A program made the translations under genes and the position numbers. A DNA stretch of 64,000 bases from Corynebacterium camporealensis (GTDB lineage Bacteria; Actinomycetota; Actinomycetes; Mycobacteriales; Mycobacteriaceae): NCBI RefSeq assembly GCF_000980815.1, contig NZ_CP011311.1:1689815-1753814 (forward strand), in the 5' to 3' direction. How positions within the stretch are numbered: position 1 is the stretch's first letter; each line of letters opens with the position of its first letter. Shown in pieces: positions 14,943 to 59,594 of this stretch. The notes under the pieces were generated by a model, which saw only the letters and a program-made list of their open reading frames with translations, was not told where the DNA came from and searched no databases.

Positions 14943-15671
14943 CTATGCAGCCTGGGTTTCCTCTGGCGGAGCGTTCGACCAAGCAATCTCGAAGATGTCC
15001 AGTTGCCTCTTTTTCCGAGGACGACCGCCCCGTGGAGGGGTCGGGTTCAGTTCTTCCTCCCGCTGACGGCGAAGATAGCCACGAATACGCTTGGCATTCG
15101 AGACAACAACTTGCACCGCGAGTTTGACCGCGAAGCCACAGATTCCGCGCATACCCTTCTTAGAGCGGTCACCGTCTCCCAAAGGGGCGTCGTATTTCAG
15201 CGAAGCATTGCACCCCTCATTGTTGGCGCGACCTGCCTTGTAGATGTCGTACCACTGCGGGGTGTACGGCGTTGGCCCCTGCTGCAAGTACTTGTTGACG
15301 CGGCCCAAGGTCTTGTCCTCGGTGTCGAGGGGAATCGTAACCGTCTGCTGAGTACAGCAGCGTCCAGCGTCGACCTTCTTCGGCGTCTGCTTCGGGGACA
15401 GTGGCAGCGGCGCTCTGCCGCCCCTGACCTTTTTCATTCCAGCCTTTTTCGCCTTGAGGTCTGAACGACGAAGTGGACAACTCACCCGCCCGTCCAAAGC
15501 TGGACACGCAACGCGAACCGAACCATCTTCCTCGACAGAATGAACCCGCATTTCGAGTCGTTCCCGCAGCGCCATGAGGCGGCGGAACTCCCTTTCGTCG
15601 ATTTTGCCTTGCCGGTAGTCGGCTACTGGGTCATGGGCCTGCTGGAGCGTCAAAAGAGCTGGGCAGTGCAT
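14943..15671 (-). pseudogene. DDE transposase, C-terminal part in a second frame
   Basis: This frame overlaps the end of the N-terminal transposase frame and continues it after a -1 shift near 15665. It carries RANNEGCNASLK, an R-x3-E-x6-K match to the glutamate signature of IS4/IS1182-type DDE transposases, which the first frame lacks. The rest is basic and Pro/Arg-rich at the C-terminus. No ribosome-binding site precedes its own ATG at 15671. The two frames together would give one transposase of normal size. Either a one-base change has broken the gene or the ribosome shifts frame at GGAAAATG. Confidence 0.6.
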
Positions 15672-16768
15672 TTTCCATCGGAAAGGACCATGCCTACGTA
15701 GGTGGCTGCGATCCCCCGAGCTTCTTCCTTGTTAGGAATGTCGCCCACTATCTTCCAGCCGTTCTTACGCATGGGGGCTTGGTAGTACTCGGGCTTCGAC
15801 CCCGGCGAGTACGCCATGTCACCGATCATGTACCGGCGTGGGAAGCCCGTGCGTTCCAGCATCGCAACGGCTTGCAGCACGTTCTGACCGGGACGGTGTC
15901 CAGGCTTATCGACGGACACGCCAACAATGAGGTCCGGGACACTCTCGCCAAAAGCGCCACCAACAGCGACCGCCAAGGTCGGGTCAAAGCCGTGTTTGAC
16001 TTTAATCGCGCCCTTGTTTTCGCCGGGGTGGTGGTTGCCTTCTCGCACATAGCTTCCTGCATCCGGCTCCGAGGACGTGAGCTTACTGCCTGACCGCGGC
16101 ATTGTGGTCGAGGTTGCATACATCGTGGCGTCAGAAGCATAGTCGCCGATGTGCCGCTTAAACACGTCGTCGCCAGCTAGTCGCGCCGAGCCGAGAGCCA
16201 AGGCGGAATCGAAAATAGCAATTCGCTTCTTCCGCTGCTCGATCAGTGCCGGCGACCGGGTAGCTTTGAGCGCCGCAAAGACGTCCTTGTCGTACCGTCG
16301 CCCCTTTTTCGTCTCGGGGTACGGGTCGATAAGCGCTCGCGCCCTATTCCTGATGGTCCTGTAGATACGGCTGTACCACTGAGGGTTCCTCCTGTCGGTA
16401 AACAGATTAAGGTCGAGCCCGGCAGCGGCCCATGCTTTGCCGTCGAGTCGATAGCGAAGAATCTCCACAGCCTCGGTGATGTTGAGGGGTTTGTCGTCCA
16501 GTCCGGCCACAATGAGGAGAATCAGTGCGCTCCGCGCCGAAACCTGTGCCGGGCGCCCGCCTCGGTAGCGGTTCGGGTTGTCCGCCTTATCCCAGGACTC
16601 CAAGATTTCAATGACGCCAGAGGTGTCCACCACGCGAGCGGCAGTGGTGATTAAGTCGAGGCTGATCGGCCCTTGAGAATCAAGTGTTGTCGGCTCCAGA
16701 TTCCACGCGGTCATTGGCCGTAGCGCCTGGTTGATAATCGCGCTGGTTACAGTAATTGGCTGGCTCAT
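15650..16768 (-). CDS. DDE transposase, N-terminal part
   Basis: The first frame of the split transposase gives about 372 residues. It holds an N-terminal domain with ITEAVEILRYRLDGKAW and a region with the likely first two catalytic acids, in YASDATMYATS and RRYMIGDMAYSPG. The third acid is only in the following frame, so this product alone should not be active. The ATG at 16768 has GGAGG eight bases before it; a GTG at 16777 is the alternative. It lies 59 bases behind the first recombinase, in the same direction. The exact IS family is not certain. Confidence 0.6.
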   Translation of the reverse strand: MSQPITVTSAIINQALRPMTAWNLEPTTLDSQGPISLDLITTAARVVDTSGVIEILESWDKADNPNRYRGGRPAQVSARSALILLIVAGLDDKPLNITEAVEILRYRLDGKAWAAAGLDLNLFTDRRNPQWYSRIYRTIRNRARALIDPYPETKKGRRYDKDVFAALKATRSPALIEQRKKRIAIFDSALALGSARLAGDDVFKRHIGDYASDATMYATSTTMPRSGSKLTSSEPDAGSYVREGNHHPGENKGAIKVKHGFDPTLAVAVGGAFGESVPDLIVGVSVDKPGHRPGQNVLQAVAMLERTGFPRRYMIGDMAYSPGSKPEYYQAPMRKNGWKIVGDIPNKEEARGIAATYVGMVLSDGKCTAQLF

Positions 16769-16827
16769 GGTGGTCACCTCCGTCCTTCGCGGTGTTGTTG
16801 CCTGAGTCGAGATTGCCGGGTTGGTTA

Positions 16828-17793
16828 CTAGATCAGTCGCAGCCCTGAGTTCTTGTACGGGGTGCCGCCACGCAGGAGCACCCGCGCCGTTTCTTCGCTG
16901 ACCGTCCGAGGACTAAGCCACTTCTTGTAATGCTGGAGGCTTGCAAGACCGGCAGCCGTGGCCACAACAGATTCGGGGACTTGCTCGTTCATGAGCGTCA
17001 CGACCCAGGTGGTGCGCAGTCGTCGGCTGTCGAGCTGCACCGTGGCGGGCTTGCCGACGCGGGAGATAATCGCAGCGACCGACGCTGTGGTGGCCTGCTG
17101 ACGGTTGGGGAAAAGCGCTAGGTGGTCCAGGTCGAGGTTGGCAACAAGCTCCGCCACTTCTTCCTCCCACTCCGCCCGTATCGGAACCCGCCTCGCCCCA
17201 GCGCCTCGGAAGCCCGAAGCGGTGACCGTCACGAACCCCGACTCGGTGGTCACGCCGCGGGCACGAAGCGTAGCCATTTCGCATATCCTCAAACCTGCTC
17301 CGAGTCCCAGGGCGAGCAGCAGCCGAGCGTTGTCTCGTTGGTAGTCGGTGGAGTGGCTGTTGGCCCAGAACCTAAGCTGACGAACTTCCGCTTCGGTGTA
17401 CGGCTCGTCCGGCGCTTTGTAGCCGTAGCGGATGTGGGTATCAGAAAATGGCCACGCGGTGTTCAGTGCTTGGCCGAGGCTAATGAGCACGGAACGTCGG
17501 GCTCCTTTGACTCGGTCTGAGACGCTGTCTGTGTTAACGGAGTATTCGATCACATCGGGGTCGAACACGTCCTCATGGGTGAGAGCTCGCCCGAGTTCCA
17601 GCGCGGTCACCGCAGCGCGAGCAATAGCGAGCACCGCAACGCGCAGCGCCTCGCGGGACGTAACGGTCGGGACGACCTGTTGGACGGTAACGTCGACGAC
17701 GTAGTCCTGTACCTGGCTCCACTGCCCCATCGAAATTGAGCGTGGGGAGTAAGCGGTGGCGAGATGGACAAAATCATGGCCGGTTGCGGGCAT
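16828..17793 (-). CDS. Tyrosine recombinase/integrase-like protein 1
   Basis: The 321-residue protein looks like a divergent tyrosine recombinase that cuts and rejoins DNA through a phosphotyrosine. It shows the first catalytic arginine in GAGLRICEMATLR (about residue 177), a second basic box SRRLRTTWVVTLMNE in place of the usual HxxR, and a late tyrosine in LQHYKKWLS that could be the nucleophile. The N-terminal half has no recognisable domain. The start ATG at 17793 follows AAGGAG. It sits between a second recombinase-like gene upstream and the transposase frames downstream. The assignment rests on motifs and context. Confidence 0.65.
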   Translation of the reverse strand: MPATGHDFVHLATAYSPRSISMGQWSQVQDYVVDVTVQQVVPTVTSREALRVAVLAIARAAVTALELGRALTHEDVFDPDVIEYSVNTDSVSDRVKGARRSVLISLGQALNTAWPFSDTHIRYGYKAPDEPYTEAEVRQLRFWANSHSTDYQRDNARLLLALGLGAGLRICEMATLRARGVTTESGFVTVTASGFRGAGARRVPIRAEWEEEVAELVANLDLDHLALFPNRQQATTASVAAIISRVGKPATVQLDSRRLRTTWVVTLMNEQVPESVVATAAGLASLQHYKKWLSPRTVSEETARVLLRGGTPYKNSGLRLI

Positions 17794-17928
17794 GACAAAA
17801 CACTCCTTGTGAGTGCCCGACGTTTCGGCATTCTCAGCCAGGGTGGTGGGACCTGGAAGAAAAGGTGGTGTCCGAACCGAGCGGGCAGAAAATCCTGTCG
17901 CTTCTTAAAAGAAACGCTATCAGGCCCA

Positions 17929-17952
17929 TATAGGGTTTGACTAGGCCCTATA
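17929..17952. promoter_or_regulatory. Inverted repeat between the two recombinase genes, possible operator
   Basis: TATAGGG at 17929-17935 and CCCTATA at 17946-17952 are perfect inverted copies 10 bases apart, in the 193-base gap ahead of recombinase 1. It may bind one of the XRE proteins encoded at 19075 and 19607; this is inference. Confidence 0.4.
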
Positions 17953-17986
17953 CTCAACAGCAGGCACCTTCGGGGGCCGTAGCACA

Positions 17987-19009
17987 TCACATACCCCCTT
18001 GGATCAGCCGAAACGCAGGCCGGTTCGGTGACTGCCCCTGGCGACCTACCTCGTTTTCCTCGCCCGACCGCTGTGCAGGCTTCACCAGTGGTTGCAATTC
18101 CCGCCCATCAGGCCATGACCGAAATTGCGGAAGTCGAATCGCCGCCCGTTTCGCCACCGCTGCGCCGACCCGTTGCGAGACGTCCTCAAACGTTGCATCC
18201 TCAGAAAATTCCGCCAAGGCCCACGTCAGCCGCAATCGACTAGTGGTCACCTTCACGCCCGCCGGCGGAGGTAGATGGCTCACATAACCAAGACAGTTGA
18301 ACGGGAAAAGCCCACAAGAGCGAACCTCGTCCAAGGCAAGCCGTACCTCCGGGCGAACCGGCAATGTGGCACCGTCCAGGCTCACTGTGTCTGCGGAAGG
18401 AGAAATGGACGAGGGCTTTACGGCTCGGATTTCCGAAGCGTTAAGGCCAGCGCCGAACGCCAGCGCCACCACCACTGTTGCCCTGTGCCTAGCAAGGTCG
18501 GTCGGCAATTGCTCCGGCCATGCGAAAATTCGAGCCAGTTCATGCAGCGTGTACGGCGGCGGCGGTTCGGTCCGAAAACGATACGCTCGTCGCTTCGGGG
18601 TGAGCGCGTCCTCCAGGTACGCCGCCACTGGGTCGCTGGACATCCACACACGCACAAGTTCCAGAAGTCTTGCTTGCCTCCTCCTGGTGTCGGTGCGAGC
18701 AGCCGGGTCACCCGTCTCCCACCACGACGCCCATTCCGGCGTGAGCCATTCCTGCGGTTCGCTGATGTCTACACCTAAGGCAAGAACCTCGGGCAGGAAC
18801 TGGGCGAGAAGGCTTCCCACTTCACACAGGACGCGGTAAGTGGGAATCCCGGCCACGATGCTGCCCTGCCCATGACACTGAACACCACGAACTAGCACCG
18901 TGCGGATCACCTCCGCAATGGGCTCGGTTACCGGGTGCCACGTTGGGCTATAGACCCTCGCCTTTTCAAGGAGTGCTGAACGGTCTTGCTGCGCAGGTAA
19001 TTTCCTCAT
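17987..19009 (-). CDS. Tyrosine recombinase-like protein 2, possibly inactive
   Basis: The 340-residue protein parallels recombinase 1: a similar C-terminal half, a LAFGAGLNASEIRAVKP box and a later SRLRLTWALAEF box. In the first box an asparagine stands where the catalytic arginine is expected, and I find no obvious tyrosine nucleophile near the end. Both proteins finish with an RLI motif. It may be a structural partner, as in elements that use sets of recombinases. The ATG at 19009 is preceded by GGTGGCGACGAA. It is the first gene of the minus-strand set and diverges from an XRE regulator. Confidence 0.55.
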   Translation of the reverse strand: MRKLPAQQDRSALLEKARVYSPTWHPVTEPIAEVIRTVLVRGVQCHGQGSIVAGIPTYRVLCEVGSLLAQFLPEVLALGVDISEPQEWLTPEWASWWETGDPAARTDTRRRQARLLELVRVWMSSDPVAAYLEDALTPKRRAYRFRTEPPPPYTLHELARIFAWPEQLPTDLARHRATVVVALAFGAGLNASEIRAVKPSSISPSADTVSLDGATLPVRPEVRLALDEVRSCGLFPFNCLGYVSHLPPPAGVKVTTSRLRLTWALAEFSEDATFEDVSQRVGAAVAKRAAIRLPQFRSWPDGRELQPLVKPAQRSGEENEVGRQGQSPNRPAFRLIQGGM

Positions 19010-20105: not shown

Positions 20106-20798
20106 ATGAGTACCCACCACACCTCACACAGAAGGGACGAGAATGTCCCAGCACAAAGCAATGAAACCACCACTCGCCCCACCAGACCACTACAGTTCCG
20201 GGCACATTTCAACCGAAGCGAACTGCGTCGACTTGCCAGCTTCATTGGCCGCCACCGCGACAACTACCGCGTCCTCGGGCAAGACGGCGACAACCTGGGA
20301 GTGAACGAGTCCTCCCCTGCCGGCATTTTGTTCGCGCTGTTCCGCGGGCTGGACGAGCGAGGTTTCGTCACCGTCGAGGCAGACATCGACCCGGTAAAAC
20401 CCCACCGTGAGGACCTGAAACTGCTTTCCGAAGACTTCGCCGAGTTCCAAGACCTACTTCGACTAGAGGACGCGCCCAGCGAGTTTGCCAGCCGAGAGGT
20501 AGAAGAGCCGGACGAGTATGTGTTCCCCGACGCTGTGTACTACGGCTCCAGTCGCTATGCCAGGCAGACCGAAAACCTTGGCATGGTCGGTGAGTCAGGT
20601 GTGCTGGAAAGCCAGGCTCAGAAGGCCGACAAAGCCAGTCCCCTCCCGACCTGGCTCTACCGCTACGAGGTTCGAGACGTCACCGGCGCGTTGGTTGGCC
20701 TTTACCGATACAGGGTTGACGCCGACCGCGACGTTCGGCGTCTCGTGGCGCGTGGCGAGGTCGGGGCGGTGTATGTCGTAAACTGGGAGAGGTGTTAA
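20106..20798 (+). CDS. Hypothetical protein
   Basis: I do not recognise this 230-residue protein. It is soluble and acidic in its centre (DLLRLEDAPSEFASREVEEPDEYVFPD) with no membrane segment or signal peptide. The N-terminal 30 residues are Thr/Arg-rich and probably disordered. The C-terminal 60 residues (WLYRYEVRDVTGALVGLYRYRV) look like a small beta-rich domain. It lies after the XRE genes and before the Abi gene with its RNA. A TAGACT box about 30 bases upstream could be its -10. The start ATG at 20106 has no clear ribosome-binding site. Confidence 0.6.
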   Translation: MSTHHTSHRRDENVPAQSNETTTRPTRPLQFRAHFNRSELRRLASFIGRHRDNYRVLGQDGDNLGVNESSPAGILFALFRGLDERGFVTVEADIDPVKPHREDLKLLSEDFAEFQDLLRLEDAPSEFASREVEEPDEYVFPDAVYYGSSRYARQTENLGMVGESGVLESQAQKADKASPLPTWLYRYEVRDVTGALVGLYRYRVDADRDVRRLVARGEVGAVYVVNWERC

Positions 20799-20911
20799 GA
20801 GAAGGGCTGGGCTGGGCTGGGGCAATCTTAGTCGACTTCTCGGGGGTAACTTTCTAGCACCCACTTATCTTCAATGACCAATCTTCACCAGCAAGCGTGA
20901 TAGCATTTAGG

Positions 20912-20977
20912 TAATCGTTCAGCCCGCCTTGGACCGCCTTCTCCGGGAGGAATCCAAGAGTGGGCTGGATCTTTTTT
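20912..20977 (+). ncRNA. Candidate small RNA with terminator hairpin just upstream of the Abi gene
   Basis: CAGCCC (20920-20925) and GGGCTG (20962-20967) close a hairpin that also has TTGGA (20929-20933) paired with TCCAA (20953-20957) and a small inner CTCC/GGAG helix. TTTTTT follows at 20972-20977. A TAGCAT box at 20901-20906 could start a transcript at about 20912. The T run ends 19 bases before the Abi start codon. It could simply be the terminator of the preceding gene, 114 bases back. I favour an RNA because Abi genes of this type (AbiF) are reported, as I recall, with an upstream regulatory RNA. Confidence 0.5.
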
Positions 20978-20996
20978 ATCCCTGGAGTTTCACGTT

Positions 20997-21956
20997 TTGG
21001 TCAATCCACTCAAACCAGCCACAACAATTGAAGATCACATAGTACGACTGGTTGGACGTGGCATGGAAGTAGATTCACTCGAAGCTACACAGTGGCTAAG
21101 TAACGTCAGCTACTATCGTCTTTCTGCATATTGGTACCCGGCTCGGATAGTAGCTCCTGGAGCATCGGACCCCTCAGACAATTTCGTGAGCGGAACTTCA
21201 TTTTCGCAAGTAGTTCAGCTATATGAAGCTGATCGCAAACTTCGCACTCTCATCCATGATGGTATTGAGCGAATTGAGATTGCAATGCGCACTCAGACTA
21301 CCGAGTTGCTTTGCCTTCAAAACCCAGCAGACCCAGCGGGTTACCTAAACTCGGATTTATTCCGAGAGAAATTTGACCATGTCAACTGGATTTCAACAAT
21401 CTACGGGAGACTTGCCAGAGCCAAGAAAAGCGACTCAATTAAGCACTATTTAAAGACATACAGTGGACGATTCCCCCTTTGGGTGGTTGCGGAATTTATG
21501 GATTTTTCCGACATGTCCCACCTTTATTCAGGACTTAGCAACGCCGATCAAAGGAAGATTACCGAAAACCTTGATTTGAAGATCGAAATTTCAAATCTCA
21601 CCGAGGCACAAAAGCAAAAGCTCAGGAAGGGTCACCCGCTTGCTAGCTGGTTGGAACAGTTAACCATTGTCCGAAATACATGCGCTCACCACAGCCGCCT
21701 CTGGAACAAATCCTTTGCCCCCGCGTCTACGTCAGCCCTTCGCACGAACGGAAATCTCGATCTCCTTCCAGAGGGGCAAAGCGAACGCATTTTCGGAACA
21801 CTTGTTTTGATGTCCCATCTTCTTCGAGCAGTATCTCCCGGAACAACTTGGCCGGATAAGGTATTAAGAATCATTGTAGAAGATTTCCTTCCAAACCCTA
21901 TTGTCCAACCGCTAAGTCTTGGAATCCCAGCCAATTGGAACAAAACAAGGATTTAG
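20997..21956 (+). CDS. Abi_2-family (AbiD/AbiF-like) abortive infection protein
   Basis: The 319-residue protein matches the Abi_2 family of phage-defence proteins: an N-terminal LVGRGMEVDS and SYYRLSAYWYP region, a middle YEADRKLRTLIHDGIERIEIAMRT helix pair, and RNTCAHHSRLWN at about residues 226-237. RNTCAH is the R-x4-H motif of HEPN ribonucleases, so RNA cleavage during phage attack is the likely role. The start is a TTG at 20997 with GGAG at 20984-20987. The gene is AT-richer than its surroundings, a sign of transfer. Just upstream is a terminating hairpin that may be its controlling RNA. Confidence 0.8.
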   Translation: MVNPLKPATTIEDHIVRLVGRGMEVDSLEATQWLSNVSYYRLSAYWYPARIVAPGASDPSDNFVSGTSFSQVVQLYEADRKLRTLIHDGIERIEIAMRTQTTELLCLQNPADPAGYLNSDLFREKFDHVNWISTIYGRLARAKKSDSIKHYLKTYSGRFPLWVVAEFMDFSDMSHLYSGLSNADQRKITENLDLKIEISNLTEAQKQKLRKGHPLASWLEQLTIVRNTCAHHSRLWNKSFAPASTSALRTNGNLDLLPEGQSERIFGTLVLMSHLLRAVSPGTTWPDKVLRIIVEDFLPNPIVQPLSLGIPANWNKTRI

Positions 21957-21996: not shown

Positions 21997-22098
21997 GCCA
22001 CAACTCGCCCCGAATCCATGCCAAACTCCATTCCCAGTCTTCAACTTCAACGCCCCTGTGAACGCAGGAATTATCGGCTCCGACAACACTAAAATGTC
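21997..22098 (+). pseudogene. Fragment related to the 186-residue gene at 25385
   Basis: About 100 bases match 25631-25732, the linker-coding part of the intact gene (the NFNAPVNAGIIGS segment), with a frame disturbance before it and no start or stop of its own. It is the only part of that gene left here, between the Abi gene and the next hypothetical gene. Confidence 0.75.
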
Positions 22099-25197: not shown

Positions 25198-25384
25198 ATC
25201 CTCCGGATAAGCACCACAAATTTACTTCTGCCACTGATTGGGACGCAGCGACTAACGCGACCACAGTAAACAGCCACCAAATGCAGATATCGAACATGCG
25301 TACGACAGCTCCAGGGGAGCTGTCCAGGCAACGGAATAAGGTAGCAATAACACCAATCCCCCATAAACAAAGGAGATGCCCTCA

Positions 25385-25945
25385 ATGTCCCAGTCCGATA
25401 AATACACCATCGCCGACGACCTGATCCGCGAAGTTGGACAGCACCCACTACGCGACCTCAACGCCACCGCCCTAGGCGAGCGCCACGGCGTTGCTGCCGA
25501 AAGCATTGTCAAAGTCGGTCATTGGTGTATCGACAACGGCTACATGACCAAGCAATCCCATTCCGACATGAACCACGTCATGAGGTGCGGCATGTTGACC
25601 GCCGACGGTGAAGAAGTCGCCGCGGGTCTTGCCACCACTCGCCCCGAACCAACGCCAACTCCGGCCCCAGTCTTCAACTTCAATGCCCCTGTAAACGCGG
25701 GAATTATCGGCTCCGGCAACACACAGAATGTCACCCTCACAGTGTCCGAAGCACAGGTCCTTGCCCTTGCCGAAGCGCTCCGTCACGACGGCCACGTCGC
25801 GGAAGCCGACACGGTGCTCGCAGCAACTGAAAACGGAAAACAGCCTGGGCGACTGCTGGGAGCGTTCACAGCCATTGGTCCGGCGCTCGATAGCTACGGG
25901 AAGTTCGCCACCGCGATGCTTGGCATCCTCACCAGCACGCAGTAG
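25385..25945 (+). CDS. Hypothetical protein with winged-helix-like N-terminus, upstream of a type III restriction system
   Basis: The 186-residue protein has an N-terminal part (about 1-85) that reads like a small helical DNA-binding or adaptor domain (IREVGQHPLRDLNATALGER), a Pro/Thr linker near 90, a VFNFNAPVNAGIIGSGNTQN stretch typical of the short repeats found before effector domains, and a helical C-terminus. AAAGGAG at 25369-25375 supports the ATG at 25385 rather than the one at 25376. The mod gene starts 112 bases later in the same direction. A fragment of the same gene survives at 21997. The function is unknown; a regulator or accessory protein is possible. Confidence 0.6.
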   Translation: MSQSDKYTIADDLIREVGQHPLRDLNATALGERHGVAAESIVKVGHWCIDNGYMTKQSHSDMNHVMRCGMLTADGEEVAAGLATTRPEPTPTPAPVFNFNAPVNAGIIGSGNTQNVTLTVSEAQVLALAEALRHDGHVAEADTVLAATENGKQPGRLLGAFTAIGPALDSYGKFATAMLGILTSTQ

Positions 25946-26057
25946 CCCCTCCGACTGCGACCCTATGCCACTAAAAGCAATGGGGTCTATCCGCCTAATT
26001 GCTACCATTGAAAAAGACTTTTCAGCAAACATCCAGTCACGAATATCAGAAGGAACC

Positions 26058-28058
26058 ATGCCCCCCACAAAACTTGAGCTGACCTGGTTCAATAAAGACA
26101 AGGCACTCATTCCCACAGAAGCCGGAAAATATGGGTACACCTGGGTCGACCCCCGCGACCCGCGGTACTGCGAAACGCACACCTTGACGGTTCTCGAAAC
26201 AGTGACGGGTCGGCGAAACGAGAAGTGGGACGGGGTGCAATACGGGGAACGTGCCGATTTGGAGCCACAGAGCGACAACTTGCTCATTCAGGGAGAATCC
26301 GGCGATGTACTGGAGGCACTGACGCGCGTGCCGGAGCTTCGGGACAAGTATGTCGGCAAGGTTAAATGCGTGTACATTGACCCGCCATTTAATACTGGCG
26401 AGACTTTTGATAGGTACGAGGACAACCTCGAACATTCCGTTTGGTTGTCAATGATGCGCGACCGACTGGTACATTTCCGATCACTTTTGCGGGAAGACGG
26501 AACCTTATGGGTACATCTCGACGATGCAGAAAACCACCGGATGCGAGTGCTACTCGATGAAGTTTTCGGGTCTCAAAACTTTATCGGAAACGTCATTTGG
26601 GAAAAGGCCGATAGTCCGCGATCTGGCGGGAAAATGTCGTCGGATCACGACCATATCCTCGTGTACGGGCGGTCCGAAATCGCGAAACTAAATTTGAGTA
26701 AGCGCACAGAAGAAGATAATCGTCGGTTCTCGAACCCCGACAATGACCCCAATGGGGCCTGGTGGGATGACAACTTTTCTGCTCCGCACTCGATTAACAG
26801 CAGTGGCAAGCAAGTTCAGGCAGTTTTTGCCATTCAACATCCTTTGACCGGGAATATGCTATACCCAGCAGCTGGAAGACAGTGGTGGTGCCGAGCTGAC
26901 CGACTCCTTGAATCTTTGCAGCAATTCGCACCGTACAAAAAAGTTTCACCAAATATCGAAGAACGCATGAAAAGAATGCGACTTCCCGAGACTGCCGTGA
27001 ACCCTGAAATTCCAGACTTGGTCCTGGATTGCTCTCTCGAAGATGCACAAGCAACTGCCCGAAAGCGGATGAATCAGTTTCCTCTGCCAGAATCGTTTCT
27101 TCGGGGTGACAAAGGATTTGGGCGGAAGTCTTATATCCCTAGTGACGGTCTAACCCCGCGTACTCTTTGGAAAAATACCGAAGTAGGTCACAATCGTGAA
27201 GCTAAGTCCGAAATCAAACTACTTTTCCCGGATTCGGCAAAATTCGATACTCCAAAGCCAGAGCGACTATTACGCAAAATCATCGAATTATCGACTGATC
27301 CAGGGGACCTTGTGGCTGACTTCTTTGCAGGATCGGGAACAACTGCGGCAGTTGCCCAAAAACTTGGCCGACGCTGGGTTACATGCGAACTCAGTGAAGG
27401 CAACTTCCAAGAATACGTCCTGACCCGATTGAAAAAGGTGGTTTTGGGTGAAGACTTAGGCGGGATTTCCAGCTCTCACAGTCGCGAAAGGCAAGTAAAC
27501 GGAGACAACCATGTACCAGCCGAGTTCACGATCTCAGAAATGGAAACAGCGGCTAAATTGATTCGCTCACTTCCTTCTAACCGCCTTGGTTTAACTGAAG
27601 CTCAGCTTGCTGCCGTCAAAGAAGTCGAAAAGCTGATTTCAACCCGCCCATTAAAGGAAGTTCACTGGCTGGGCGGTGGCGGGTTCACCGTCGCAATGCT
27701 CGGACCGACGTGCTACGACTACTCACCTGACACTGGGTATACAGTCCTGACCTCCGAAGCGACAGGCGAAACGCTGATCGCTTCGGTGGCGGCAAACCTG
27801 GGTTTCCATCTGTCGGCAAGTGACCCACACTTCGACGGCCGCCGTAACAACGAGCATCTAGCCGTAGTGGAGGGTGTACTCACCGAGGCCAAGGTGGGTG
27901 ACCTTATGGCGCACCTGCCGGAGGGCCATTCGATTTTGTTTGCTGCAACCAACCTGGACGAGGGGGTGCGCGATGTGGTCCGTTCCTACAAGAATGGCTC
28001 CCGTGTAGTCCACGTCCCACTTGACTTGTTCCCATTTGGCGAAGAAGAGGAGAACTAG
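26058..28058 (+). CDS. mod: Type III restriction-modification system, adenine methyltransferase subunit (Mod)
   Basis: Mod recognises the target site and methylates adenine; with Res it forms the restriction complex. The 666 residues show the catalytic motif YIDPPFNTGE (about 109-118) before the SAM-binding motif FFAGSGTT (near 424), the beta-class order. The part between them is the expected target-recognition domain. The ATG at 26058 follows AGAAGGA; the open frame extends 110 codons further upstream over the previous gene and should be ignored. res follows after three bases, so the two are one operon. Confidence 0.9.
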   Translation: MPPTKLELTWFNKDKALIPTEAGKYGYTWVDPRDPRYCETHTLTVLETVTGRRNEKWDGVQYGERADLEPQSDNLLIQGESGDVLEALTRVPELRDKYVGKVKCVYIDPPFNTGETFDRYEDNLEHSVWLSMMRDRLVHFRSLLREDGTLWVHLDDAENHRMRVLLDEVFGSQNFIGNVIWEKADSPRSGGKMSSDHDHILVYGRSEIAKLNLSKRTEEDNRRFSNPDNDPNGAWWDDNFSAPHSINSSGKQVQAVFAIQHPLTGNMLYPAAGRQWWCRADRLLESLQQFAPYKKVSPNIEERMKRMRLPETAVNPEIPDLVLDCSLEDAQATARKRMNQFPLPESFLRGDKGFGRKSYIPSDGLTPRTLWKNTEVGHNREAKSEIKLLFPDSAKFDTPKPERLLRKIIELSTDPGDLVADFFAGSGTTAAVAQKLGRRWVTCELSEGNFQEYVLTRLKKVVLGEDLGGISSSHSRERQVNGDNHVPAEFTISEMETAAKLIRSLPSNRLGLTEAQLAAVKEVEKLISTRPLKEVHWLGGGGFTVAMLGPTCYDYSPDTGYTVLTSEATGETLIASVAANLGFHLSASDPHFDGRRNNEHLAVVEGVLTEAKVGDLMAHLPEGHSILFAATNLDEGVRDVVRSYKNGSRVVHVPLDLFPFGEEEEN

Positions 28059-28061
28059 ACC

Positions 28062-30665
28062 ATGCCGCTAAATATCTCCTACGACGAGAATTTGATCGCT
28101 CAGATGGAGGCCAAGTTCGACTTGCGTCAGCCGAATGTTGAAGCGCTCAAGGCCATTGTTCGACGCCTGGAAAGTGGCGATTTTGACCCGCAGAAGCAGT
28201 TGCTCCTCGACCTTGCCACTGGTGTCGGCAAGACGTACATCATGGCGTCGCTAGTGGAATACCTGCGCCGCCAAGGCGTGATGAATGTGATGCTAGTTAC
28301 CCCGAACACTGTTGTGCAGAACAAGACGGTAGCTGACTTCTCGCAGGGTTCGAACCGCTACATCGGTGGTTTTGACATCCCACCTGCCTTGGTCACTCCA
28401 GACGACGTGCATAAGCTGCGCTTGGGTGAGTCGTGGTACCACCTGTTCGCCGGTGAGGGTGCGTCCACGGTCTACATTTTTAACGTCCAGCAGTTGTTCC
28501 CACCAAAAGACGAAGATAAAAACAAGGCGAATGGTGTGGAAGCTCAGCGTCGCAAGACGTGGCGTTTCCAGGAGGAGACGGGCATCCTCGCAGAACGTCT
28601 TATCGAACTGGACGACCTAGTGGTGATCGTCGACGAAGCTCACTTGTTTGGTTCTACTGCTGCGCGTTTCCAAGAATCGTTGAAGGCGTTCCATCCTGCT
28701 GCGACAGTGGGACTTACTGCTTCATCGTCTAAGGACGATGACGTTGTTTTCCGCTACCCGTTATGGAAGGCGATCTCCCACGGGTTCGTCAAACAACCCG
28801 TCTTGGTCTACCGCAACAAGGGCTACAAAAAGGGCGAGGCGGAGCGCCAGCTCCAGGACGCTATGTCTCTTTTGGCTTTGAAGGAGGAAGCATACCGTCT
28901 GCACCGAGAAGCACACCCTGACGGCAAGCAAACGAAGCCACTTCTTTTCGTCGTGTGTACCGATGTCAACCACGCGACGGAAACCGCGACGACGTTGCGA
29001 AACACGTACTTCCCAGACCCGAACGCCGTCCATGCCGTCCTCCAGGTCGATAACCAGCACGATGACGCGACAACGCAAACCCTGCTACGAAACCTTGACG
29101 AACCGAACTCCCCTGTACGGGTCATCGTGTCCGTAAATAAACTGCGCGAAGGGTGGGACACGAAGCGTATCGCGGTGATGTGTACTCTGCGTGCAATGGG
29201 CTCGGAAGTACTCACCCAGCAGGTAATGGGCCGTGGCCTTCGCTTGCCCTTTGGCAAGCTCACGAAAGTTCCCGCCATCGACGAGCTTGATATTATCTCC
29301 CACAAGTCATTCGTTGACTTATTGACGTCGGAGAACGTGCTGCGTGAGTTCGGTATCGAGGAAGACATTCCAGGCGTAAAGCCGGAATTGGTCTTGCCAC
29401 CGAGCGGCGGCAGCGTATCCCCTGTTGTTGATCCTGGTGTGACCGGCGGCGAGATTGGGACGGGTACCGAAGCTGACGACAATACTGGAGATGGCAATGG
29501 AGCCGGCGCGACCACCGGAGATCAGGACCATTCAACAACTGGCGTACCGTCTGCCGGTTCGGGTCTTCCTATCGGGGCGCGAAACGTGGGCGATGACGAG
29601 GAGATCACCACTGGTGTCGAGATTGTCGCGCCGGTTGTCGTAAAAGTGAACGAGGCGTTTGAGGGGCAGACATTTACGTTCCCCTCCTCGACAATGACTG
29701 AGACACAGCGCCCGTTCAGCTTGGTGGATATTCCCACCTCGGTGATCGTCGAGGCCGCGAAGAAAGTCACTGACCACGGGGAACTTCTTGACCGCGCAAA
29801 GATCATCGTCGAAGAAGCCGCCGACAAACTGGGCGTGAAGCACATGGAACGCCAGTCTGTGCCGAGTTTCAGGGAATCGACAAGCAAGGTGGAGAGTGAG
29901 CTGACGAATAGGCTCATGCGAACGGGGCTTTTCCAGGCGACGAAAGAAAATGACTCGGTGCTGCGCCGTAGCATTGTCCCAACGTTTATGAAAGCCTCCG
30001 GGGTTGAGAAGTGGACTGTCAAGGCCAAGGAGTCCGCAGTGGTGAGTCTGCTGGACATGGTAAAGCAGGAAGCGAAGGCTGCGGTTGCGAAGAACACGTT
30101 CACTGAGGTCACTGTCCACCCAGTAACTCTGCCGGTGCAGACCTCCTACATCCTTCCCGTTGGCCGGACGGTACAGAAACCGCTGGAGAACGTGAACCAG
30201 AAGACGCGCACCAAGGACGCTGGGTTTGCAGCCAAGCAGTACTACGGACCATGGGACAAAGGCTTGTTCGACGCCGCCGCCTTCGACTCGTTTACTGCCG
30301 AGTACCAACTCGCCCGGCTACTCAACTTCGACCCGAACGTGACGTGGTGGACACGTATCTATGAGGACAACGGGGCGAAGGTCGCCTACACCACGCGCAA
30401 CGACTATATTCCTGATTTCGTCGTGCTGGGCACAGACGGAACCTATTGGATTGTTGAAGGTAAGGCCGACGACAAGCGCGAGGACGAGATCGTTTTACGC
30501 AAGCGTGAAGCCACCGAGCGTCTATTACGTTCCCTGGTGGCTCACCCGGACTACCAGGACGCCACCTGGGCGTACCTGATTGCGTTCGAGAGCGACATTC
30601 GCAACAGCGACTCGTTTGCAGAGCTCATTAGTATTGGCTGCGTGGAGAGGATGCTGCCGAGTTAA
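28062..30665 (+). CDS. res: Type III restriction enzyme, helicase-nuclease subunit (Res)
   Basis: Res hydrolyses ATP and cuts unmodified DNA together with Mod. The 867 residues hold Walker A (DLATGVGKTYI, near 51), the DEAH-type box VIVDEAHLFG near 188, helicase motif VI (QQVMGRGLRLPFG, near 390) and a C-terminal PD-(D/E)xK nuclease (PDFVVLGTDGTYWIVEGKADD, near 787-807). Between about 445 and 510 lies a Gly/Thr/Asp-rich segment, probably a disordered linker, that is not usual in this position to my knowledge. It starts three bases after mod. Confidence 0.9.
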   Translation: MPLNISYDENLIAQMEAKFDLRQPNVEALKAIVRRLESGDFDPQKQLLLDLATGVGKTYIMASLVEYLRRQGVMNVMLVTPNTVVQNKTVADFSQGSNRYIGGFDIPPALVTPDDVHKLRLGESWYHLFAGEGASTVYIFNVQQLFPPKDEDKNKANGVEAQRRKTWRFQEETGILAERLIELDDLVVIVDEAHLFGSTAARFQESLKAFHPAATVGLTASSSKDDDVVFRYPLWKAISHGFVKQPVLVYRNKGYKKGEAERQLQDAMSLLALKEEAYRLHREAHPDGKQTKPLLFVVCTDVNHATETATTLRNTYFPDPNAVHAVLQVDNQHDDATTQTLLRNLDEPNSPVRVIVSVNKLREGWDTKRIAVMCTLRAMGSEVLTQQVMGRGLRLPFGKLTKVPAIDELDIISHKSFVDLLTSENVLREFGIEEDIPGVKPELVLPPSGGSVSPVVDPGVTGGEIGTGTEADDNTGDGNGAGATTGDQDHSTTGVPSAGSGLPIGARNVGDDEEITTGVEIVAPVVVKVNEAFEGQTFTFPSSTMTETQRPFSLVDIPTSVIVEAAKKVTDHGELLDRAKIIVEEAADKLGVKHMERQSVPSFRESTSKVESELTNRLMRTGLFQATKENDSVLRRSIVPTFMKASGVEKWTVKAKESAVVSLLDMVKQEAKAAVAKNTFTEVTVHPVTLPVQTSYILPVGRTVQKPLENVNQKTRTKDAGFAAKQYYGPWDKGLFDAAAFDSFTAEYQLARLLNFDPNVTWWTRIYEDNGAKVAYTTRNDYIPDFVVLGTDGTYWIVEGKADDKREDEIVLRKREATERLLRSLVAHPDYQDATWAYLIAFESDIRNSDSFAELISIGCVERMLPS

Positions 30666-59198: not shown

Positions 59199-59594
59199 GC
59201 GAATGAGCTGGCCTATAAGCCGGATTCTGTCGAAGGATGAACATCCATCTGGACCGACTGTTGCCAATCGGCCTCAAGCAGCTACCTTCAGGCTTGGACG
59301 AGCAGCCCGCCTGATCAAGCCCGCGCACGCGCGGGCCATGATGCCTTGCTCCCGGTGGGGTTTACCCAGCCGCCGCCATCACTGACGACGCTGGTGCGCT
59401 CTTAACGCACCGTTTCACCCTTACCCCAGAAAACTGAGGCGGTCTACTTTCTGTTGCACTTGCCCGCGGGTCACCCCGGGTTGCCGTTAGCAACCACCGT
59501 GCTCTGTGGAGTCCGGACTTTCCTCGGCCTTCGCCTAGCACCACAAAAAGGTGCTGGTTCGTTAGCCGCGTTCACCCGGCCTGCTCATTCGCGC
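59199..59594 (-). ncRNA. rnpB: RNase P RNA
   Basis: This is the catalytic RNA that trims the 5' end of tRNA precursors. On the minus strand it contains GAGGAAAGTCCGGACTCC, the universal 5' conserved core, and ACAGAATCCGGCTTATAGGCC near its 3' end, shown here as ACAGAATCCGGC and TTATAGGCC. The ends GCGAATGAGC and GCTCATTCGC pair to form helix P1, and a T run follows. TACACT at 59600-59605 (minus strand) is a good -10 and lies over the stop of the upstream gene. Confidence 0.93.

Follow-up and report, generated by a model that had tools for sequence, protein, structure and literature searches.

A conserved hairpin RNA ahead of an Abi_2 gene in Corynebacterium camporealensis: a putative RNA lock on an AbiD/F-type ribonuclease, with stand-alone copies in phages

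AbiD/F proteins are regarded as ancestors of Cas13, and PbAbiF together with its AbiFr non-coding RNA (ncRNA) was reportedly described by Zilberzwige-Tal et al. in Cell in 2025. Restraint by an RNA is known for two AbiD/F proteins. In Clostridioides difficile, the RNA named RCd22 has its own promoter, mostly stops before abiF, and binds and neutralizes AbiF both in cis and in trans (PMC12373285), and PbAbiF binds one ncRNA per monomer (PMC12737573). RF03085, the abiF family of Rfam, is named beside AbiD/F (PMC12165695), and a single abiF small RNA is described in cyanophage S-CREM1, with mention of three bacteriophage genomes in Rfam (PMC9964418). Here we analyzed a stretch of 64,000 nucleotides (nt) of Corynebacterium camporealensis (NZ_CP011311.1, 1,689,815–1,753,814; hereafter the window, whose own positions serve as coordinates), in which a hairpin lies directly ahead of a gene for an Abi_2 protein. 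Since the anatomy of this locus is the same as that of the RCd22 system, with other letters, RNA restraint of the HEPN enzyme is the likeliest reading: at a probability of roughly 80%, we take the locus to be a two-part RNA-protein unit in which a hairpin RNA with a predicted promoter of its own, ahead of the gene for an AbiD/F-type HEPN ribonuclease, would bind the enzyme and hold it inactive. The conserved class of Abi_2-associated RNA to which the hairpin belongs (class A) is real, and its copies in phages are the surprising part.

All elements of the unit lie on the forward strand. The original prediction had placed a hairpin with a six-T run 19 bases ahead of a TTG-started Abi_2 gene, and the coordinates, the fold and the open reading frame (ORF) were all confirmed. 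The 54-nt hairpin (20917–20970) folds at −34.9 kcal/mol, with z scores of −4.60 (78 nt folded) and −4.73 (66 nt folded), and 0 of 200 shuffles was as good either time. Its conserved lower stem, identified by folding, relatives and the covariation count, consists of a 5′ arm, GUUCAGCCCGC, at 20917–20927 and a 3′ arm, GUGGGCUGGAU, at 20960–20970. A bulged A (20959), present in most members of the class, separates this stem from the upper stem and loop (20928–20958), which by folding and alignment are variable and are extended in the window. One base past the hairpin comes a run of six U (U6; 20972–20977), the predicted termination point, with read-through into abi; 19 bases separate its end from the TTG at 20997, and a GGAG at 20984–20987 plausibly serves the Abi_2 gene as ribosome binding site. 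The hairpin starts ten bases past a TAGCAT (20901–20906), which had been proposed as a plausible −10 and which we retain as the predicted −10 box of the RNA, as the box is kept at related loci. The predicted small RNA, of about 66 nt, spans 20911–20977, both ends being predicted.

The gene itself (20997–21956), recognized by its ORF, Pfam, PADLOC and fold, encodes 319 amino acids from a TTG that aligns with ATG or TTG starts in relatives. Pfam Abi_2 (PF07751) matched it with 176.9 bits (cut-off 25.6) over profile positions 1–184, and PADLOC calls it AbiD with 215.8 bits. The R-x4-H motif that had been noted in this protein is present: RNTCAH, the HEPN active-site motif, occupies residues 226–231 in the translation and alignment (codons at 21672–21689), and R226, N227, A230 and H231 are unchanging across seven aligned proteins. 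An AlphaFold2 model of Abi_2 from seven sequences (predicted local distance difference test score: 80.7) had a sole match in the PDB at E values up to 0.001, namely 8vz6, the PbAbiF dimer with ncRNA (template modeling scores: 0.75/0.80; E = 2e-12), to which the structural alignment showed 26% identity. The sequence match to PbAbiF (E = 1.1e-29) covers residues 6–292.

A protein search of genome contigs returned nine Abi_2 relatives. In eight of them (L003–L010, loci and viral stretches being given L numbers here; 47–56% identical), the letters GTTCAGCC(C/T)GCC ... G(T/C)GGGCTGGAT stand directly before the gene, with variable upper stems, and upstream of the ninth (L011, Bacteroidota; 30% identical) a class A hairpin was not found. 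A covariance model, R1, built from L003–L010 with the window excluded, matched the window at 20911–20974 (53.3 bits, E = 2e-12; runner-up in the window: 10 bits), so that the window RNA combines the lower stem with a match to a member-excluded model, the two features by which class A is defined. In the whole genome this was the single R1 match at E values up to 0.001. Among 397 genomes of the order, eight had an R1 match, and all seven above 45 bits (the window included) lie just upstream, on the same strand, of a gene found by a separate PF07751 search of the 397 genomes; the eighth (L019, 29.5 bits), without Abi_2, is a generic G+C-rich hairpin and was taken as chance. Among 394 genomes of the taxonomic class there were four matches, these being the window, one already known, one apparently corresponding to L006, and one of 28.8 bits (L050) that lacks Abi_2, reads like coding DNA and was likewise taken as chance. 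The lower stem and a 5′ AAUC leader are nearly fixed while the proteins are only 47–68% identical to that of the window. Conserved structure upstream of homologous genes, set beforehand as one of two tests on which the prediction could fail, was therefore found, and with it compensatory changes.

These changes were counted in a set of 23 class A members, of which 18 have Abi_2 and 5 come from phages, giving 22 distinct rows. In this set 97.8% of the cells were paired and 6 of 17 pairs had changed on both sides; both-side changes amounted to 40 cells, a count that none of 500 shuffles reached (shuffles: 11.9), and to at most 5 when the structure was slid. At the fifth pair, 14 rows have A-U and 8 have G-C, and because this pair lies within an ungapped arm the exchange is independent of alignment fitting. 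As read from the aligned letters, the compensatory changes support the predicted class A fold.

We then considered the other Abi_2 genes of the order. PF07751 matches occurred in 44 of the 397 genomes; upstream DNA was read for the 23 with a nearly full domain at E below 1e-30, and weak or partial domains outside the 23 were left out of the RNA counts. By their letters the RNAs fell into classes A (4), A2, the G-C form (3), B (3, plus the B-like L221), C (2), D (3), E (1) and F (6). The scanned members of class F match Rfam abiF RF03085 (L039: 47.1 bits; L031: 42.0; L023: 41.3; cut-off 37), with two members under the cut-off (L029: 29.4; L027: 27.7) and one, L222, assigned by eye. RF03085 had no match at E up to 1 in L020–L022, L032–L034 and L036–L038, nor any in L003–L010 and L052–L057; the positive control, phiC2, scored 37.6 bits. 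A closed hairpin of −15 kcal/mol or lower, followed within 10 bases by 4 or more T, preceded 22 of the 23 Abi_2 genes as against 15 of 49 control genes, and with a TAnnnT box just upstream added the counts were 20 of the 23 near full-length Abi_2 genes versus 1 of 49 controls. L031 failed the hairpin statistic because its chosen start lies too far downstream, its RF03085 match being upstream. At 18 of the 23 loci the TAnnnT box stands 10–14 nt ahead of the hairpin. The window RNA is a new class, separate from RF03085, among several hairpin classes found at that place. As separate observations, three loci have two RNA classes in tandem, a class C hairpin (L005:230–264, L006:2778–2818, L007:2781–2821) preceding the class A hairpin and its Abi_2 gene at a spacing of about 70 nt (L005) or 117 nt (L006, L007) that is too close for an intervening Abi_2 gene, and in L009 and L021 the Abi_2 open frame stops early with the upstream hairpin intact.

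Class A2 pairs also occur in environmental relatives, on plasmids of Mycolicibacterium sp. TY66 (L053) and Rhodococcus sp. NBC_00294 (L054). On a tree of 35 proteins that took in plasmid-borne and other relatives (off the tree: L009, L011 and L021, with short or broken ORFs; L058 and L059, with RNA class not set; and later L221 and L222), the seven RNA classes required 6 changes, which is the minimum and was equaled by 0 of 200 shuffles. Because RNA class fits the protein tree, RNA and protein seem to evolve as matched pairs, suggesting that each Abi_2 clade has its own RNA class as a matched lock.

The original prediction of an AbiF-type upstream RNA antitoxin is supported as a reading, with antitoxin action the probable role. 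Several observations weigh against the RNA-lock reading. Identity with the known AbiF RNA family was wrong: RF03085 had no match in the window at E up to 10 (gathering score: 37 bits), which places the window RNA outside that family. Because 8 of the 17 pairs are invariant, part of the support for the lower stem is conserved sequence. Two of five measures gave no clear gain over shuffles (24 of 500 for both-side-changed pairs, 213 of 500 for pair types), covariation was slight in the first 8 sequences alone, and the A4 alignment was made to fit the structure model, which favors structure. As some of the control genes also carry hairpins with T-rich tails, the added box alone separates them from Abi_2 genes, and an earlier form of the hairpin statistic, with sequence windows that included neighboring bases, gave 2 of 23 versus 1 of 49. 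On the tree, class F alone is split (2 changes), its placement being uncertain because of the long branches L039, L051 and L038, and support for classes A2 and B is modest. At the locus, a simple promoter/terminator scan listed neither the TAGCAT −10 nor the hairpin (its single promoter-like and single terminator-like sites are both inside the Abi gene), so that the observation rests on folding and conservation, and no clear −35 box for the RNA was seen in the sequence.

We infer for this locus that transcription of the hairpin RNA would start at its own predicted promoter and that most transcripts would stop at the U6 run, with read-through alone giving abi messenger RNA; given this predicted stop, the RNA would be in excess over the messenger. 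The RNA would bind the HEPN enzyme and keep it inactive, and phage infection would be the trigger by cutting the RNA supply; once free, the HEPN dimer would cleave cellular RNA, and growth would halt. Stand-alone phage RNAs of class A and of two other classes would act as decoys and keep the enzyme locked while infection proceeds. The locus anatomy fits the layout of type III toxin-antitoxin systems, in which a terminator-ended RNA lies directly upstream, the transcript here being predicted.

In viral contigs, a first class A pattern gave nine stretches, four of which were taken as real by their model scores (L067: 62.2 bits; L066: 46.5; L062: 41.5; L064: 32.2) while five (L061, L063, L065, L068 and L069; 13.2–21.2 bits) were set aside as chance or unsure. 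A short-loop pattern added five more, namely L226 (42.6 bits), L223 (41.3), L227 (35.3), L224 (31.5) and L225 (22.4), the last of which was set aside in the same way. L064 is Mycobacterium phage GuuelaD, a laboratory phage of M. smegmatis mc2 155, L066 is Gordonia phages Phinally/Leonard, and the RNA coordinates of L224 are those of Rhodococcus phage Takoda. PF07751 was found in 0 of the eight whole class A viral records, which may be fragments, and the window Abi_2 protein had no match in viral contigs. In five records (L062, L064, L223, L224 and L227) the hairpin stands between two transfer RNA (tRNA) genes, 2–4 bases from each; in L226 the upstream tRNA is identical and the examined DNA ends 11 bases past the hairpin, so that placement in a tRNA array was counted for 6 of the 8 records. 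The Phinally copy lies between two genes, on the opposite strand, and L067 is a contig with a major head protein and no tRNA within the stretch examined. A 51-base query around the GuuelaD RNA matched 21 Mycobacterium phage records at 98–100%, three phages being listed twice. In the four Rhodococcus-type copies the upper part is reduced to two base pairs above the lower stem and a tetraloop, AAU ahead and GGAUC at the end are kept, no U-run is present, and the copies differ mutually by A-U to G-C in one pair.

Since the hairpin is kept in phages with neither U-run nor gene, its role would reach beyond cis-only attenuation, and the tRNA-array placement together with the copies lacking a U-run argues for action in trans. 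A phage would benefit from such an RNA because it would bind the enzyme in trans, and these observations suggest that the phage-borne copies are RNA decoys. Judging by their spacing, the tRNA-wedged copies may be excised by tRNA-processing enzymes. We lean toward the broader view that phages of many hosts carry stand-alone AbiD/F RNA locks, class by class, many of them in tRNA arrays and predicted to be co-excised with tRNA, as a natural RNA anti-defence, directed at the kin of the ancestors of Cas13, whose cassettes are maybe exchanged between sister phages. Two further hairpins were seen in such records. In L067, class A (2077–2117) and class C-like (2268–2305) hairpins stand in tandem, without Abi_2, and in Mycobacterium phage Crossroads (L096, 698–731) other hairpin-capable letters occupy the tRNA-Gly to tRNA-Lys gap that in its sister phage GuuelaD holds the class A RNA, and are perhaps an exchanged cassette.

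Other classes were also found in viral contigs. A class C pattern matched 16 viral stretches. Eight of these, on seven contigs (L071, L074, L075, L077, L079, L080, L082 and L084), have a whole or partial Abi_2 beside the RNA and no tRNA gene within the stretches examined; the other eight (L070, L072, L073, L076, L078, L081, L083 and L085) are without Abi_2 in whole records searched, and four of them (L070, L072, L078 and L081) have a tRNA gene 4–6 bases away. Because L070/L072 and L083/L085 share RNA contexts, the distinct tRNA-adjacent count is 3 of 6. An 18-base core pattern of RF03085 matched at least 120 viral stretches. In the DNA around the 120 listed stretches (107 with more than 1 kb of downstream DNA examined) an Abi_2 ORF was found in 0 of 120, positive controls being found in 7 of 7, and PF07751 was found in 0 of 39 whole viral records, which were drawn from the first 80 of the at least 120 stretches and chosen for extending past the DNA already examined. 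The listed core matches represent 112 different contexts, 83 of them with a perfect stem of at least 5 base pairs (bp); a same-strand tRNA lay within 40 nt in 18 of the 112 listed contexts (11 with the stem) versus 170 of 48,000 positions drawn at random from these loci. Rfam RF03085 scored above its cut-off in 13 of 14 tested viral loci, which were mostly picked for a nearby tRNA, and in several the tRNA was 4–11 bases off. One viral contig with a solitary abiF RNA also bears a Glutamine-II riboswitch (L164:5032–5087). The eight viral matches to a class B pattern resemble terminators before phage genes; no Abi_2 ORF was near them in the DNA examined, or in the whole records L088 and L093. A class D pattern had 0 matches in viral contigs. 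By its title, a report of Rince et al. from 2000 is said to concern a DNA region of lactococcal phage sk1 that protects phage 712 from AbiF; Rfam lists no RF03085 at gathering scores in sk1 or 712, and the lactococcal RNA may be of another class.

The alternative that survives best, which we nevertheless hold to be rather unlikely, is that the phage copies are not decoys and are instead passengers, unrelated terminators or RNAs that serve the phage in another way. The chance-like scores of five of the nine first viral-scan matches (at most 21.2 bits), the terminator-like class B matches and the 29 of 112 listed RF03085-core contexts in which a simple test found no perfect 5-bp stem would all fit this view, and the cyanophage abiF small RNA is given no decoy role in the excerpted text of PMC9964418. 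However, the members at 31.5–62.2 bits share the lower stem, five records have tRNA genes 2–4 bases away on both sides, the Rhodococcus-type copies show a double change in one base pair, and none of the whole records searched contained PF07751.

An attenuator that works in cis only, where the hairpin stops own-promoter transcription before abi and the RNA is idle in trans, would account for the U6 run here and for the T-rich tails at 22 of 23 Abi_2 loci, and RCd22 too ends transcription in cis (PMC12373285). Such a device needs no fixed stem letters, whereas here the lower stem and AAUC leader hardly vary; moreover, the Rhodococcus-type phage copies keep the hairpin without the U-run, and RNA class fits the protein tree, so we consider it improbable. 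It is more improbable still that the RNA guides or activates the HEPN nuclease, like the CRISPR RNA of Cas13, and does not inhibit it: a long unpaired variable stretch, such as a guide would need, was not seen in the aligned members, phages would hardly be expected to carry an activator, and RNA inhibits in both tested AbiF systems (PMC12373285; PbAbiF by way of the review PMC12737573). A plain terminator for the gene that ends at 20798, which the original prediction had offered as its alternative, would suit a hairpin 3′ of that gene on the same strand and the frequency of hairpins with T-rich tails at control genes, but it is extremely improbable, and was rejected along with a chance hairpin, given the conserved letters, the TAnnnT box (18 of 23 loci) between upstream gene and hairpin, a hairpin that stays with Abi_2 while farther-upstream sequence varies among relatives, the class-tree fit and the U-run-free phage copies.

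The window holds several other features. A type III restriction-modification pair (25728–30665, forward strand; PADLOC, Mod: 533.9 bits, Res: 145.4 bits) lies about 4 kb downstream of Abi_2, and together they are a defence island. An 81-nt direct repeat (22009–22089 and 25642–25722; 83% identical) has its second copy within an ORF at 25376–25945, and its first copy, just past abi, resembles a remnant of such a gene. The upstream stretch 14943–19009 (reverse strand), in which an integrase-family protein (16828–17793, PF00589) is flanked by large ORFs without Pfam match (15650–16777 and 17987–19009), is likely a mobile region. An RNase P RNA, class A, lies at 59200–59587 (reverse strand; 282.1 bits).

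Several clade-matched hairpin classes without an Rfam abiF match are now added to the two AbiD/F proteins with known RNA restraint. As the classes are matched to clades, the rule of one Abi_2 clade, one RNA lock is testable by RNA swaps between clades. The phage copies allow a direct RNA-decoy test in laboratory phages of Mycobacterium smegmatis, and decoy RNAs would explain non-tRNA hairpins within phage tRNA arrays. Our literature searches, with subscription papers outside their scope, found no report of class A–E RNAs or of phage decoys for AbiD/F.

Among known systems, AbiF_Cd/RCd22 of the Clostridioides difficile prophage phi027 (RF03085) is close to the locus in layout: both have an Abi_2 HEPN protein with R-x4-H and, directly upstream, an ncRNA (in the window a predicted one) with its own promoter and a terminator before the gene. 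RCd22 consists of two RF03085 motifs plus a separate terminator hairpin, while in the window a single hairpin would be both the body of the RNA and its terminator. With PbAbiF and its AbiFr ncRNA (8vz6), the window Abi_2 shares the fold, the comparison covering the protein only. Like class A, RF03085 is a small hairpin RNA, and in sister loci of the order it is found at the corresponding position ahead of Abi_2; it differs by its conserved unpaired letters (the CUCUC-ACGAUGC region of the consensus), instead of which class A has a bulged A and a long lower stem that hardly varies. The toxin of ToxIN is of another protein family than Abi_2. ToxIN offers both an RNA antitoxin and, in the pseudo-ToxI of phage PhiTE, a tested precedent in another type III system for a phage-borne RNA mimic that defeats abortive infection (PMC3475682); ToxI is a tandem repeat, whereas the window system is a single hairpin with tRNA-wedged copies in wild phages. 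RNA anti-CRISPRs (Racr) are similar in being solitary phage copies of a defence-system RNA, and differ in that they target CRISPR-Cas and mimic array repeats (PMC10651486).
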